Of a stretch of DNA of 64,000 nt, positions 30,727-35,506 are shown in pieces. The stretch comes from Arsukibacterium sp. UBA5043 (GTDB lineage Bacteria > Pseudomonadota > Gammaproteobacteria > Enterobacterales > Alteromonadaceae). Position numbers and translations under genes: made by a program. The DNA is taken from contig DIBV01000006.1 in NCBI GenBank assembly GCA_002415085.1, positions 62,001 through 126,000 of the forward strand. Direction: 5' to 3'. The notes beneath the pieces were generated by a model. It had not been told where the DNA came from, did no database searches, and worked only from the letters and a program-made list of their open reading frames with translations. Each line of letters begins with the position of its first letter. The first letter of the stretch is position 1.

Positions 30727-31410
30727 ATGTTGCAGTTTGATCAGGTCAGTAAAAGCTATCCGGGTGGTTTCGTGGCGCTGGACAGAATCAGCTTTCGGTT
30801 GGAAAAAGGTGAAATGGCTTTTTTGACCGGCCATTCTGGTGCGGGCAAAAGTACTTTGTTAAAGCTGATTAGCCTGATCGAGCGACCTAGTGCCGGCAGG
30901 GTGTTAATTAACGATATTGAGTTAAGCCGGATTAAACGCAGCCAGATCCCATATGTAAGACGTGACGTCGGGATTATTTTTCAGAACCACCGACTGTTAA
31001 TGAATCATACTGTTTTTGATAATGTCGCTTTACCTCTGGTGATAGAGGGATTCACCGGCAAGGAGATGGTAAAACGGGTTCATGCGGCACTGGATAAAGT
31101 GGGATTACTGGATAAAGTGCGCTGCTTACCCGCAACCTTATCAGGTGGTGAGCAACAACGGGTTGGCATTGCCAGGGCGGTGGTGAATAAGCCGCCATTA
31201 CTTCTGGCAGATGAGCCAACCGGTAACCTTGATCCGGATTTATCAAAAGACACCATGCGGGTATTTGAGGCGTTTAATCAGGTGGGCGTCTCGGTGTTAG
31301 TGGCTACGCATGACCTGGGGTTGGTAGCGCGGATGAAATATCGGACTCTGACGTTAAAACAAGGTCGAATGATCAACGATGGCTTGTTGCAATATCAGGA
31401 GCCAGTATGA
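30727..31410 (+). CDS. ftsE: Cell division ATP-binding protein FtsE
   Basis: An ABC ATPase of 227 residues that works with FtsX at the division ring to control peptidoglycan hydrolase activation. The Walker [10 protein letters not shown] is near residue 36, the signature LSGGEQQR near 139 and the Walker [13 protein letters not shown] near 158. Length is typical. ftsX overlaps its stop by four bases (ATGA). The regulated hydrolase activator EnvC is encoded on the other strand 3 kb downstream. Confidence 0.97.
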
Positions 31411-32387
31411 GTATCCTGTTTACCGGACGGGCAACCGGGGCGGCAGCAAAGAAAATCGGGTTACTGCGTCGTTTTATCATGTTCTGGCTTAATCATGCGC
31501 GTCAGGCAGTAGCGAGTCTGGGTGAATTATGGCGAACACCGTCTGCGTCCATTTTAACCATTGCTGTGCTGGGCGTTAGCTTAACGCTGCCTGCTACCTT
31601 GCACCTGCTGGTGAAGAATATGCAGCAAATTAGCAGCAGTTTCACGCAGGCAGCAGAAATAAGCCTGTATATTCGTGAACAAACGCCCGCTAATCAGGTG
31701 CAAAGTCTGGTTACTATATTACAAGCTGATCGTGATGTGGCGCAGGTGATTTTCGTTAGCAAACAACAAGCGATGGCTGAATTCCAGCAGATATCTGGTT
31801 TTGGCGCCGCACTGAATTATCTGGATAGCAATCCTTTGCCTGATCTTATCCGGGTATTACCTAAGAACACCGCCCCTCAGGCAGCAGAAACACTGCTCAA
31901 ACGATTGAGTGCTGAACGGGTGGTTGAATTTGCTAAGCTGGATATCGACTGGCTTACCCGGTTAAATGCGATTGTCAGCATGTTGCAACAAGCAGTAGCC
32001 ATTATTGCTTTGCTGTTGTTAAGCGCTGTGCTGCTGATTGTCGGTAATACTATCCGCTTGTCTATCATGAATAAAAAAGACGAAATTGAGGTGATGAAGC
32101 TGGTTGGAGCAACTGATGCCTTTATTCAGCGACCTTTTCTGTACACGGGGGTCTGGTTTGGTATTTTTGGTGGCTTGCTTGCATTTCTGGTAGTAGAACT
32201 GATGTTGTGGTGGCTCCAGAGTGCAATCAGCAATGTGACCGCGCTGTACCAAAGTGATTTTAGCCTGAAAGCGATGAGTTTCGTTGAGTTTCTTACTTTA
32301 CTGCTGATTGCAGTATTGCTGGGATTGGCGGGGTCTTATCTATCAGTGCGCCGGCATATCAGTGCCATTGAACCTACCGGTCCTTAA
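31407..32387 (+). CDS. ftsX: Cell division protein FtsX
   Basis: A membrane protein of 326 residues, the partner of FtsE. The first membrane segment is near residues 48-68 (SILTIAVLGVSLTLPATL). A periplasmic domain at about 70-190 follows, expected to contact EnvC, then three more segments near 197-220, 245-270 and 290-312. VRRHISAIEP at the C terminus is conserved. The FtsEX complex passes ATP-driven movement across the membrane to EnvC, which then activates amidases. Confidence 0.95.
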   Translation: MSILFTGRATGAAAKKIGLLRRFIMFWLNHARQAVASLGELWRTPSASILTIAVLGVSLTLPATLHLLVKNMQQISSSFTQAAEISLYIREQTPANQVQSLVTILQADRDVAQVIFVSKQQAMAEFQQISGFGAALNYLDSNPLPDLIRVLPKNTAPQAAETLLKRLSAERVVEFAKLDIDWLTRLNAIVSMLQQAVAIIALLLLSAVLLIVGNTIRLSIMNKKDEIEVMKLVGATDAFIQRPFLYTGVWFGIFGGLLAFLVVELMLWWLQSAISNVTALYQSDFSLKAMSFVEFLTLLLIAVLLGLAGSYLSVRRHISAIEPTGP

Positions 32388-32412
32388 TAACAATTAATTA
32401 TTAAAGTATAAT
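32384..32412 (+). promoter_or_regulatory. Candidate sigma-70 promoter of rpoH
   Basis: A perfect -10 hexamer TATAAT (32407-32412) is preceded at 17 bases by TTAATA (32384-32389), a 4-of-6 match to the -35 consensus. Transcription would start near 32419, which puts the CIRCE element inside the 5' leader, about 33 bases downstream of the start. Confidence 0.65.
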
Positions 32413-32451
32413 TTTTAGAATAACCAGATCTCAAAAACCTGCAAACGACAA

Positions 32452-32478
32452 TTAGCACTCTTGAGCAAAGAGTGCTAA
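32452..32478. promoter_or_regulatory. CIRCE element (HrcA operator) in the rpoH leader
   Basis: TTAGCACTC (32452-32460), nine bases, then GAGTGCTAA (32470-32478): this is the CIRCE consensus with no mismatch in either arm. CIRCE is the binding site of the heat-shock repressor HrcA, best known before groESL and dnaK operons. Here it ends 36 bases before the rpoH ATG. In RNA it would also form a 9-bp stem. hrcA itself is not in this window. Confidence 0.93.
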
Positions 32479-32514
32479 TATCGTTGTATTCGATTGAAAC
32501 AGGATTGGCAAAAC

Positions 32515-33375
32515 ATGACAACTAAAGCAGATAAAGCAGAATTTATGCCGCTTACCGTCGCAGCCAGTGGCAGTCTCGAGGCATATACTCACGCTGTTAG
32601 CACTATACCGATGTTAACTGCAGAGCAGGAACGCAATTTAGCTGAGCGTCTGCAGCAAGATGGTGATTTGACGGCCGCCCGCCAATTGATTATGTCGCAC
32701 CTGCGGTTTGTAGTACATATTGCCCGTAGCTATTCAGGTTATGGCTTACCTATTAGTGATTTGGTGCAAGAAGGGAATATAGGCCTGATGAAGGCAGTTA
32801 AGCGCTTTGATCCGACAGTAGGGGTGCGTCTGGTCTCTTTTGCGGTACACTGGATTAAAGCAGAAATACACGAGTATGTGCTGAAAAACTGGCGCATCGT
32901 TAAAATTGCTACGACTAAAGCGCAACGGAAATTGTTTTTCAATTTGCGCAAAGCAAAAAAACATTTGGGCTGGTTTAATCAGGATGAAGTGAAACACGTT
33001 GCGGAGTCACTCGGTGTGGCAGAACACGAAGTTCGGGAAATGGAATCCCGGATGAGTAACTACGATATGCCGTACGATGCGCCGGATGAAGACGATGATT
33101 CTGCCTTTACTGCACCGGTGTACTATTTACAGGATAAAGCGTCTGATTTAGCCATTCAGGTTGAAGACGAGCAATGGGACACTGCAGCAGCGGACAGGTT
33201 GCAGGCGGCGATGAGGACGTTAGACGACCGCAGTCAGGATATTGTGCGGGCTCGCTGGCTGGATAATAACAAACTCACCTTGCAAGAGCTGGCTGAGCGT
33301 TATCAGGTGTCGGCTGAGCGGGTACGCCAGCTTGAGAAAAATGCGATGAAGAAGTTGCACTCTGCGCTGAGTTGA
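32515..33375 (+). CDS. rpoH: RNA polymerase heat-shock sigma factor (sigma-32)
   Basis: A sigma factor of 286 residues that directs RNA polymerase to heat-shock promoters. Region 2 is clear ([40 protein letters not shown], about 55-95, then [24 protein letters not shown]). The RpoH box [13 protein letters not shown], specific to sigma-32, lies near 130-142, and the region 4 helix-turn-helix [21 protein letters not shown] near 250-270. The ATG at 32515 is preferred over TTG 32494 and has an AGGA about ten bases upstream. It follows ftsX with a promoter and a perfect CIRCE element between. Confidence 0.97.
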
Positions 33376-33416
33376 GACGTAAGACGTTAGCCTGGTAATG
33401 CTAACGGTACTGAAAT

Positions 33417-33445
33417 AAAAAACCTGCCGCGGCAGGTTTTTTATT
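33417..33445. terminator. Bidirectional terminator between rpoH and yibQ
   Basis: AACCTGCC and GGCAGGTT form an 8-bp stem around GC, flanked by an A run on the left and TTTTTTATTT on the right. It lies between convergent genes and should serve both. Confidence 0.88.
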
Positions 33446-33461
33446 TGGATACTTTAAGACA

Positions 33462-34235
33462 TTATTGTGGTGCAGAAATAGCAGGTGCGGTGAAACCAGC
33501 AGCCACGACATCATGCTCCAGCGGTAACAGTGCCGATATTCTAACCAGCTCAATGCCATGTTTATTAAGCAATGGCAGGTTTTTCTTCAAAAATTCATAA
33601 GTTTGTGGGTAGGGGTGGCCAATGGCGATGGCGACCTTATGGCGATGTGCTATCTGCAACAATTGCTGGAACTGGCGTTGTAACGCTGCCTCGGACAGAT
33701 CATTATCCAGAAAAACATGACGGCTTAAACTGGCAACGCCATACTGGCGGGCATACAAGCGCGCTTTACTCTGTGGCGTGGTAAGACTGTCCACAAAAAA
33801 CAGCTGGCGTTGTCGCAGGTATTCCATGGTCCAGGCCATTGGTTGATCCAGTTCGGTATACAAACTGCCCATATGATTATTTACGCCAATGGCATAGGGG
33901 ATATCTGCCAATGCCTGTTGCAAAGCGTCACGCACTTGCTGACGGTTCATATCGTGGGTGAGTGCCCCAGGACCCAGTCTTTTGCTGTTATTGGCTTCCA
34001 TCGGCATATGCAGCATCACATCTTTTTGCTGAGCAAAAGCAAGTTGTGCTGATTTAGGACCATAAGGCGTGTGAGGTAATACCGATAATGTCAGGGAGTA
34101 GGGTAAAGATACCATCTTTAAGTCGGCTTTCTGATAGCCGATGTCGTCAATGATAATGGCAATTCGCGGCTTTTCTGCCATTACTTCTGCACTGAACAGT
34201 GCAGTCAGTGCCAGCCCAAATAATGTTATACGCAC
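33462..34235 (-). CDS. yibQ: Divergent polysaccharide deacetylase family protein (YibQ-like)
   Basis: A protein of 257 residues with an N-terminal signal peptide (about 1-20, ending VMA). The domain is the divergent polysaccharide deacetylase type: AIIIDDIGYQ near residue 27, HMPMEA near 75, GVNNHMGSLY near 117, and IAIGHPYPQTYEFL near 205. Members are periplasmic with unproven activity. The start is GTG at 34235. The order gpmI-envC-yibQ is conserved with E. coli, though 107 bases separate it from envC here. Confidence 0.9.
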   Translation of the reverse strand: MRITLFGLALTALFSAEVMAEKPRIAIIIDDIGYQKADLKMVSLPYSLTLSVLPHTPYGPKSAQLAFAQQKDVMLHMPMEANNSKRLGPGALTHDMNRQQVRDALQQALADIPYAIGVNNHMGSLYTELDQPMAWTMEYLRQRQLFFVDSLTTPQSKARLYARQYGVASLSRHVFLDNDLSEAALQRQFQQLLQIAHRHKVAIAIGHPYPQTYEFLKKNLPLLNKHGIELVRISALLPLEHDVVAAGFTAPAISAPQ

Positions 34236-34342
34236 GCGGTTATTATTCCTGTTTGCCTATTCTGCCGCCGAAAAATAGTGGTCAGATCATCCTGCTTTTG
34301 CCCCATATATTGGCGTATGCTTACACTGGCGGCAAGACTTTT

Positions 34343-35506
34343 TTAACCCTTGTTTTTGCTTAGCCATGACAAGGGGTTAACTGCATCGCCTTTCTCTCTT
34401 ATCTCAAAATAGAGGCCTGCAGTAGCCTGGCCACCGCTCATACCCACCAACGCAATTGCTTCGCCGGCGATAATTTGTTCGCCAGGCTGCTTCAAAATAT
34501 TCTGGTTATGGCCATAAAGGCTCATAAAACCTGCGCCATGATCCAGAACAATAACCCAGCCATAGCCTTTTAACCAGTCAGCGTAAATGACTCTGCCATC
34601 CGCTATTGCCTGGACGGTCTTACCTTCCTGGCCCTGAATTAAAATACCGCGGGAGCGCATACCACCTTGTCGGTTCTCACCAAATCCTTGTAATAAATCA
34701 CCGTTAAGTGGCCAGCGCAACTTGCCTTTATTAGCCGTTAATCCCAGTAGCTCCAGACTTCGCTCTGCCAAAGCCCGAAGCTGGTCAATGGTGTTCTGTA
34801 AGCTGGTCTCGTTCTGACGCAGGTAGCTTAGCTGGCTTCCTTGCTCTTTTAGTAACTGCTGCAGTTGGTTGACCGCTTGTTGCTGTCCGGCTTTGACGGC
34901 AACTAACTGTTGTTGTTGCTGCTGCTGTTCGTTCCGGACAATGACTAACTGCTGTTGCTGTTCAGCCAGTTGCGTTTTTACCAGTTCCAGTTCCTGCACG
35001 GTTTTATTTATTTTTGCCAGCTGCTCTACTCTGGCTCTGTTGAAGTACTGATAATAAGTCAGAGCCCGCTCTAGTTTGCCTGCATCCTGCTGATTTAAAA
35101 GCATTCGGGTGTAGTCATGCTGACCTAAGCTGTATGCGCTCTTTAATTGTGCCGCCAGTTGCTTTTGTTGCTGTTGCAGTTCAATTTGAAGTTGCTGTTG
35201 CTGGGTGTTGAGCTCGCTACCCCGTTGTTCAAGGCGGCCCAGTTGTCGCTCGGTTTGCTGCAGTTGGTCTGATGCTTTAGCCAGTGCCCGATCGGACTGT
35301 TGTAGTTGTTGCTCCGCTTTAGTAAGTTGTTTTTGCTGTTGTTTTAGCTGGCGCTCGGTGGCCTTTATCTGTTGTTGAACCTGTTCAAGCTCTTGCTGCT
35401 GTTCAGCTTGCTGACGGCCTGTTGCCGGCATAGTGCATACTAAACAGCACAACAGCAGCAGCCGAAGTGGCTGCTGGCTTGCGGGGGAAGAAAAATGTAA
35501 ATTCAT
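34343..35506 (-). CDS. envC: Murein hydrolase activator EnvC
   Basis: A periplasmic protein of 387 residues. A signal peptide (about 1-31) is followed by a long Gln-rich coiled coil (about 32-245) and a C-terminal LytM/M23 domain (about 270-385). The metal ligands of active M23 peptidases are missing: the first motif reads RSRGILIQG instead of HxxxD, and the last is GLYFEIREKG where active enzymes have HxH. This matches EnvC, a non-enzymatic activator of amidases AmiA and AmiB at the septum under FtsEX control. It lies 11 bases after gpmI. Confidence 0.93.
   Translation of the reverse strand: MNLHFSSPASQQPLRLLLLCCLVCTMPATGRQQAEQQQELEQVQQQIKATERQLKQQQKQLTKAEQQLQQSDRALAKASDQLQQTERQLGRLEQRGSELNTQQQQLQIELQQQQKQLAAQLKSAYSLGQHDYTRMLLNQQDAGKLERALTYYQYFNRARVEQLAKINKTVQELELVKTQLAEQQQQLVIVRNEQQQQQQQLVAVKAGQQQAVNQLQQLLKEQGSQLSYLRQNETSLQNTIDQLRALAERSLELLGLTANKGKLRWPLNGDLLQGFGENRQGGMRSRGILIQGQEGKTVQAIADGRVIYADWLKGYGWVIVLDHGAGFMSLYGHNQNILKQPGEQIIAGEAIALVGMSGGQATAGLYFEIREKGDAVNPLSWLSKNKG

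Follow-up and report, generated by a model that had tools for sequence, protein, structure and literature searches.

At this locus, the operator of one heat shock regulator precedes the gene of another. HrcA and sigma-32 are commonly described as alternative heat-shock circuits. In the 64,000-nucleotide stretch of Arsukibacterium sp. UBA5043 DNA analysed here (the window), the sigma-32 gene rpoH (forward strand, 32515..33375; TIGR02392 score 413.4 bits, cut-off 323.1) is located downstream of ftsX (forward strand, 31407..32387; TIGR00439, 357.3 bits) in the local gene order ftsY-ftsE-ftsX-rpoH. The rpoH leader contains TTAGCACTC-TTGAGCAAA-GAGTGCTAA at 32452-32478, a CIRCE element with 0 mismatches, as originally predicted. 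Its left arm occupies 32452-32460, the N9 spacer 32461-32469 and the right arm 32470-32478 (no strand assigned), and its end lies 36 nt before the rpoH ATG (32515). A Shine-Dalgarno-like AGGA (forward strand, 32501..32504) is read directly from the sequence 10 nt 5' of this ATG. Just 3' of rpoH, a GC-rich stem-loop preceding a run of T residues (33420-33445) was recognized by eye as a likely intrinsic terminator.

The arms agree at every base with the operator TTAGCACTC-N9-GAGTGCTAA of the HrcA/CIRCE regulon. Elsewhere in the window, no site matches with three or fewer mismatches; 0.01 matches are expected from 100 dinucleotide shuffles. When the search was extended to all 18 contigs of the genome (3.88 Mb, 99.96% complete), the rpoH CIRCE remained the only site with up to two mismatches. 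One match with three mismatches (C1:213090) is located inside an open frame, which we take to encode an EAL-type protein, and the groESL and hrcA stretches of the same genome contain no CIRCE-like site with fewer than five mismatches. Operators deviating at more than two or three positions escape these scans, so that "only target" means only CIRCE-like target throughout.

The genome encodes a single HrcA on the same contig as the window (C8:335065), between grpE and an opposite-strand gene, which from its position is presumably nadK. The protein matches PF01628 (E 3.9e-37), exceeds the NCBIfam equivalog cut-off of TIGR00331 (238.7 versus 197.2 bits) and matches the solved HrcA structure 1stz (E 2.9e-19). 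A separate Pfam model, that for the DNA-binding domain of HrcA, gives 16.6 bits, below its cut-off of 21. Residues 1-75, including the helix-turn-helix, share on average 50% identity with the HrcA proteins from four non-family genomes, which are 64% identical among themselves; after residue 110 the two values are 21% and 43%. Judged by these identities, the DNA-reading part of HrcA is kept better than the remainder. Since HrcA of this lineage is divergent and its DNA-binding model falls below the cut-off, sensing or binding may differ from that of other HrcA proteins. In genus g18 (G018, G064, G098 and G127), HrcA has diverged strongly (PF01628 E-values of 1e-7 to 5e-9); the CIRCE at rpoH is perfect in this genus and stands directly 3' of a TTGC..-type promoter-like stretch. 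The expected absence of HrcA from enterics agrees with the E. coli control, in which hrcA was not found.

Of 147 genomes from the GTDB family of the window's organism, 25 from nine genera have hrcA above the cut-off. All 25 carry a CIRCE at rpoH, perfect in 24 and with one mismatch in G035, and none has a further CIRCE outside the rpoH locus at up to two mismatches. A second, adjacent CIRCE at rpoH is found in four of them (G113, G035, G049 and, with three mismatches, G138). Of the 122 genomes without detected hrcA, only G110 has an rpoH CIRCE. Its assembly also lacks grpE, so that hrcA is probably located in an assembly gap. G136 (88% complete, no hrcA) has no rpoH above the cut-off and was therefore not counted as informative, and the remaining 120 show no rpoH CIRCE at up to two mismatches. 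No CIRCE was found at up to three mismatches in any of the 40 hrcA-less rpoH leaders examined. A weak hrcA match in G039 (20.6 bits, below cut-off) was not counted as hrcA. Operator and repressor appear and vanish jointly in this family (25/25 with hrcA, 1/122 without). CIRCE-like sites away from rpoH (up to two mismatches) occur in six of the 122 hrcA-less genomes (G122, G123, G002, G142, G021 and G044); three of these sites lie in a common coding-like stretch, and that of G044 resembles an rRNA leader by eye. They were put down to chance or hairpins. The site in G123 (L017, G123:C18:290622), located away from rpoH in a genome without detectable hrcA, matches CIRCE perfectly, and its spacer is nearly self-complementary.

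The joint loss can be followed within genus g50, in which G113 and G138 have both hrcA and CIRCE. In G050 and G085, nadK is located directly beside grpE, hrcA is gone and the CIRCE is decayed, while the surrounding TGAACTT and TCAATA are kept; these two genomes represent a natural hrcA knockout. nadK adjoins grpE in nine of 13 hrcA-less genomes for which the grpE stretch was examined, and in the other four no nadK was found within the stretch. A GrpE tree of 23 genomes, with seven of 20 inner branches well supported, requires four changes of hrcA presence, three of them forced by well-supported branches. Where the site is present, it is strongly conserved: 17 of 18 arm positions are invariant among the best copies from each of 26 genomes, with a free spacer. 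All 18 arm bases are perfect in the six genomes of the genus sampled, while flanks and spacer changed. Both arms and the N9 spacing were thus found conserved in the leader alignment that had been proposed as a check.

groESL is a usual member of the HrcA/CIRCE regulon, although not part of the operator definition. In the family it is not a member: none of 29 groESL leaders (those of the 25 hrcA-bearing genomes and of G110, G050, G085 and G123) contains a CIRCE, the best match within 350 nt having at least seven mismatches. Instead, 28 of the 29 genomes have a sigma-32-like promoter scoring at least 10 of 13 within 150 nt before groESL, compared to 6% of shuffled leaders; that of the window's genome is CTTGGAT-N14-CCCCAT. 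Because groESL lacks CIRCE and has a sigma-32-like promoter, HrcA should reach the chaperones only via sigma-32, and in the window's family it most likely acts on the heat response through sigma-32 only. Sigma-32-like sites (at least 10 of 13) also precede hrcA in six of ten leaders, including that of the window's genome (shuffles 6.5%), so that sigma-32 may make its own repressor.

It is likely, as judged from sequence, gene content, conservation, joint loss with hrcA and the lack of other CIRCE sites, that the palindrome serves HrcA as a functional operator, at which HrcA, made competent by GroE, would block rpoH as the only CIRCE target of the family, the chaperones being reached via sigma-32. 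Binding, repression and feedback are all predicted on these grounds.

Of 377 genomes from the class, taken here as Gammaproteobacteria in the GTDB sense with the betas included, 278 carry hrcA (the window's genome, G000, and two other family members included). In a hand-picked set of 60 hrcA-bearing genomes with few contigs, nearly one per family, CIRCE was found at up to two mismatches in 58. Among the matches listed, 69 sites from 32 genomes were assigned, and all 69 stand before groESL, rpoH or hrcA (L141 about 0.5 kb before hrcA). These 32 HrcA-bearing genomes outside the family, among the matches listed, have a groESL CIRCE in 32 and an rpoH CIRCE in 29 cases; G167, G340 and G412 lack the latter among the sites fetched, with one further G412 site outside the 69. 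At named rpoH loci, CIRCE was found at up to two mismatches in 31 of the best 80 of at least 592, including Nitrosomonas communis, Dyella flagellata, Alcanivorax and Pandoraea, while the Enterobacterales, Vibrio and Pseudomonas loci among the best 80 have none. The original prediction had given groESL or dnaK as the normal location of CIRCE. A CIRCE before rpoH is not unusual, for most HrcA-bearing genomes of the class that were read have one; since the rpoH CIRCE is common outside the family, the missing groESL CIRCE is the departure. In Luteimonas, Xanthomonas and another member of the Lysobacteraceae (L207, L211 and L217), the rpoH operator carries, fully or partially, the symmetric variant TTAGCAGTC-N9-GACTGCTAA, and the same variant is found, fully or partially, at rpoH in G364, G725 and G809 (L311-L313), hinting at a shifted HrcA specificity.

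In the available parts of the open-licence literature, only one report places a CIRCE at rpoH: Geobacter sulfurreducens has a perfect CIRCE at -51 from rpoH as well as hrcA and sigma-32 in its genome (PMC545781, 2004). According to the same portions of that report, groESL and hrcA-grpE-dnaK-dnaJ of G. sulfurreducens also carry CIRCE, whereas here rpoH is the sole member (PMC545781).

Many of the rpoH operators outside the family are combined with a putative promoter. Sites were scored for a sigma-E-type promoter (GGAACTT, 15-17 bp, TCnAA; threshold 10 of 12). A GGAACTT-like -35 element (AAC kept, at least five of seven) starts exactly 16 nt before CIRCE at 18 of 29 class and 15 of 31 named rpoH sites, and 17 nt before it at one more class and four more named sites. 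At groESL, the distance of 16 or 17 nt occurs at 0 of 32 sites, and 15 nt at one. In the 16-nt register, the -10 element begins with TC, the two final bases of the left arm. At least 10 of 12 positions are matched at 19 of 29 class rpoH, 22 of 31 named rpoH, 0 of 32 groESL and 0 of 7 hrcA sites (the hrcA-side CIRCE L141 was excluded from this scoring), while shuffling of flanks and spacer gave a mean of 0.03-0.3 sites. As the operator supplies TC in every set, the -35 element is the informative part; a correctly placed AAC is found at 21 of 29 class rpoH versus 2 of 32 groESL sites (Fisher p 1.1e-7). The third spacer base is A at 23 of 29 class rpoH versus 4 of 32 groESL sites (18 of 31 for the named and 5 of 29 for the family sites). 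A strict composite pattern, allowing two mismatches, was found at 30 places in 27 of 396 phylum genomes, the reversed pattern at none. The 30 places comprise 21 rpoH loci (18 in the right orientation, three reversed), seven groESL loci (all with two mismatches, four reversed), L304 and the unassigned L290; the ten places with 0-1 mismatch are nine rpoH loci in the right orientation and L304. The latter (G201:C8, position 1501) is a mismatch-free sigma-E-type/CIRCE composite before a clpB-like gene (named by eye).

Within the family, rpoE was found in 12 of 12 genomes searched, including the window's own (TIGR02939, over cut-off), and 12 of 29 rpoH sites reach at least 10 of 12 for the sigma-E-type promoter. 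Of the 13 leaders from the genera g1, g42 and g45, nine carry the -35 element at a distance of 10 nt upstream of CIRCE and, within the spacer, TCAAA (TCGAA in one); the nine genomes, out of 12 besides the window's own, score 10-12 of 12. Three leaders of g50 and g35 are in nearly the class register, and none of the ten leaders of g18, g36, g22 and g49 has a sigma-E-type promoter at 10 of 12. By a similar scoring, a sigma-E-like site was also found in 12 of 40 hrcA-less leaders, compared to 1.1 in shuffles. Judged by these matches, rpoH of the window's relatives and of other members of the class seems to receive input from a sigma-E-type promoter.

Transcription of rpoH by sigma-E is described for E. 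coli rpoH P3 in the consulted part of PMC8103513, and the fam/rpoH gene of Bordetella bronchiseptica is transcribed by SigE in vitro according to the main text of PMC3490749, in which neither HrcA nor CIRCE is mentioned. The predicted sigma-E-type input to rpoH in the window's relatives resembles these two cases as presented in those portions (PMC8103513, PMC3490749). The arrangement differs in that the -10 element lies inside CIRCE in many HrcA-bearing genomes, and in that the window's own promoter is eroded. A sigma-E promoter overlapping CIRCE was not seen in the available parts of the open-licence literature, and both this nested arrangement at rpoH and the rpoH-only HrcA regulon look new. 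Neither was found in the open-licence literature, a scope outside which Permina and Gelfand 2003 falls; that work, said to deal with beta, gamma and epsilon regulons, may already list rpoH sites.

We lean slightly towards a composite reading for many HrcA-bearing gamma- and betaproteobacteria. With the -10 element placed inside CIRCE, HrcA would cap the rise of sigma-32 upon envelope stress. HrcA of the family would have shed its chaperone targets to become a dedicated rpoH governor in a loop of GroE, HrcA, rpoH, sigma-32 and groESL. Inside the family, the element would have changed its register (the -10 moving out of the left arm into the spacer), the operator would have been duplicated in tandem, or it would have disappeared along with hrcA.

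In the window's species itself, the promoter of rpoH is less clear. A candidate for an eroded sigma-E-type promoter is interleaved with CIRCE (forward strand, 32442..32470) and would consist of a -35 relic CAAACGA (32442-32448), 16 bp and a -10 relic GCAAAG (32465-32470). It matches 7 of 12 positions, so that the window copy stays below the threshold for a sigma-E-type promoter, and G126, the closest relative sampled, keeps even less of it. A consensus-like sigma-70 promoter had been predicted instead, and the sequence TTAATA-17-TATAAT is indeed present (forward strand, 32384..32412; 10 of 12). The same 1 kb contains four promoter-like sites versus 2.0 in shuffles, which makes this candidate weak, and its TATAAT is absent from the aligned G126 leader; the predicted sequence thus exists, but it is not conserved. 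A -10-like hexamer, TAGAAT (forward strand, 32416..32421), is present in four of six aligned genomes of the genus, with TAGATT and TATAAA in the other two. Further downstream, 5' of CIRCE, AGATCTnAAA (32426-32435) is partly kept in g1, g42 and g45; it matches none of the promoter classes tried. No conserved rpoH promoter could be assigned in the window's species from the leader alignment of the genus.

This situation would fit a CIRCE that is a relic, left behind with HrcA still encoded and the control of rpoH lost since the promoter moved: the overlapping sigma-E-type promoter is eroded in both G000 and G126, no conserved promoter is assignable, and the C-terminal part of HrcA diverges fast. 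Against it, the perfect arms in all six genus genomes have persisted despite the changed flanks and spacer, the site has decayed in just those two g50 genomes that lack hrcA, and residues 1-75 of HrcA are still about 50% identical to those of the outgroups. We regard a relic as unlikely.

Alternatively, the palindrome could exert its effect chiefly in the RNA, either through a leader hairpin that changes the stability or translation of the rpoH mRNA or within an RNA thermometer; we consider this quite unlikely. CIRCE stabilises mRNA in other bacteria, and the predicted fold of the window's leader RNA is better than that of its shuffles (z -3.42) and includes a 12-bp stem spanning CIRCE. However, only one arm base ever changes among the best copies of 26 genomes, no compensatory change is found and the spacer is free, as expected for a DNA operator; the near-invariant arms, the free spacer and the loss together with hrcA point to DNA rather than RNA as the level of action. 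CIRCE also tracks hrcA across genomes. The accessibility of the start site computed at 25, 37 and 45 °C is alike in 26 CIRCE-bearing and 40 hrcA-less leaders (p 0.2-0.7; start codons picked by script; a comparison without a known thermometer as positive control), and no Rfam family was matched at gathering score in 31000-34500. An RNA thermometer was rejected on account of the missing accessibility difference, Rfam match and covariation, and the predicted effect of the stem on mRNA stability or translation gains no support from covariation either. Furthermore, the sigma-E-type register of the relatives would start the transcript in or after the right arm, so that most of the stem would be outside the RNA. 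Control of rpoH in E. coli by an RNA thermometer and proteolysis is alike in that it sets the sigma-32 level upon heat; it acts on translation and stability and without HrcA, whereas here a transcriptional layer is predicted. A chance palindrome or an intrinsic-terminator-like hairpin, for which a terminator scan flagging the stem on the minus strand and the CIRCE-like sites found at other loci in six of 122 hrcA-less genomes (one perfect, in G123) might be invoked, has a negligible probability given the low expectation per window even at three mismatches and the rpoH site in every hrcA-bearing genome of the family.

The reading of the palindrome as a working HrcA operator implies the following circuit. 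At normal temperature, GroE would keep HrcA competent, and HrcA bound to 32452-32478 would block transcription of rpoH. Heat or misfolded protein would occupy GroE or disable HrcA, and rpoH would be derepressed. Sigma-32 would then raise groESL, perhaps also hrcA-grpE, until GroE and HrcA are restored and rpoH is switched off again. In related genera, the operator would also cover the -10 element of the sigma-E-type promoter, by which HrcA would gate the signal that reaches rpoH from envelope stress. Campylobacter jejuni HrcA is heat-sensitive, and its binding is stimulated by GroE, as stated in the part of PMC8533110 consulted. With the classical HrcA/CIRCE control of groESL and dnaK, the circuit shares the operator, the repressor family (TIGR00331) and the expected chaperone feedback; the classical targets are chaperone operons, whereas the target here would be a sigma factor. 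The stacking of HrcA on sigma-32 put forward by the original prediction stands as a genome-based inference: hrcA is present, the palindrome is conserved and both co-occur in the sample of 147 genomes.

HrcA and sigma-32 appear to be arranged in series here, with sigma-32 as the sole HrcA output. If this holds true, it poses the question of whether the sigma-32 level is set by chaperonin availability. If the nested sigma-E-type promoter holds true as well, one stretch of DNA would integrate envelope and cytoplasmic folding stress.
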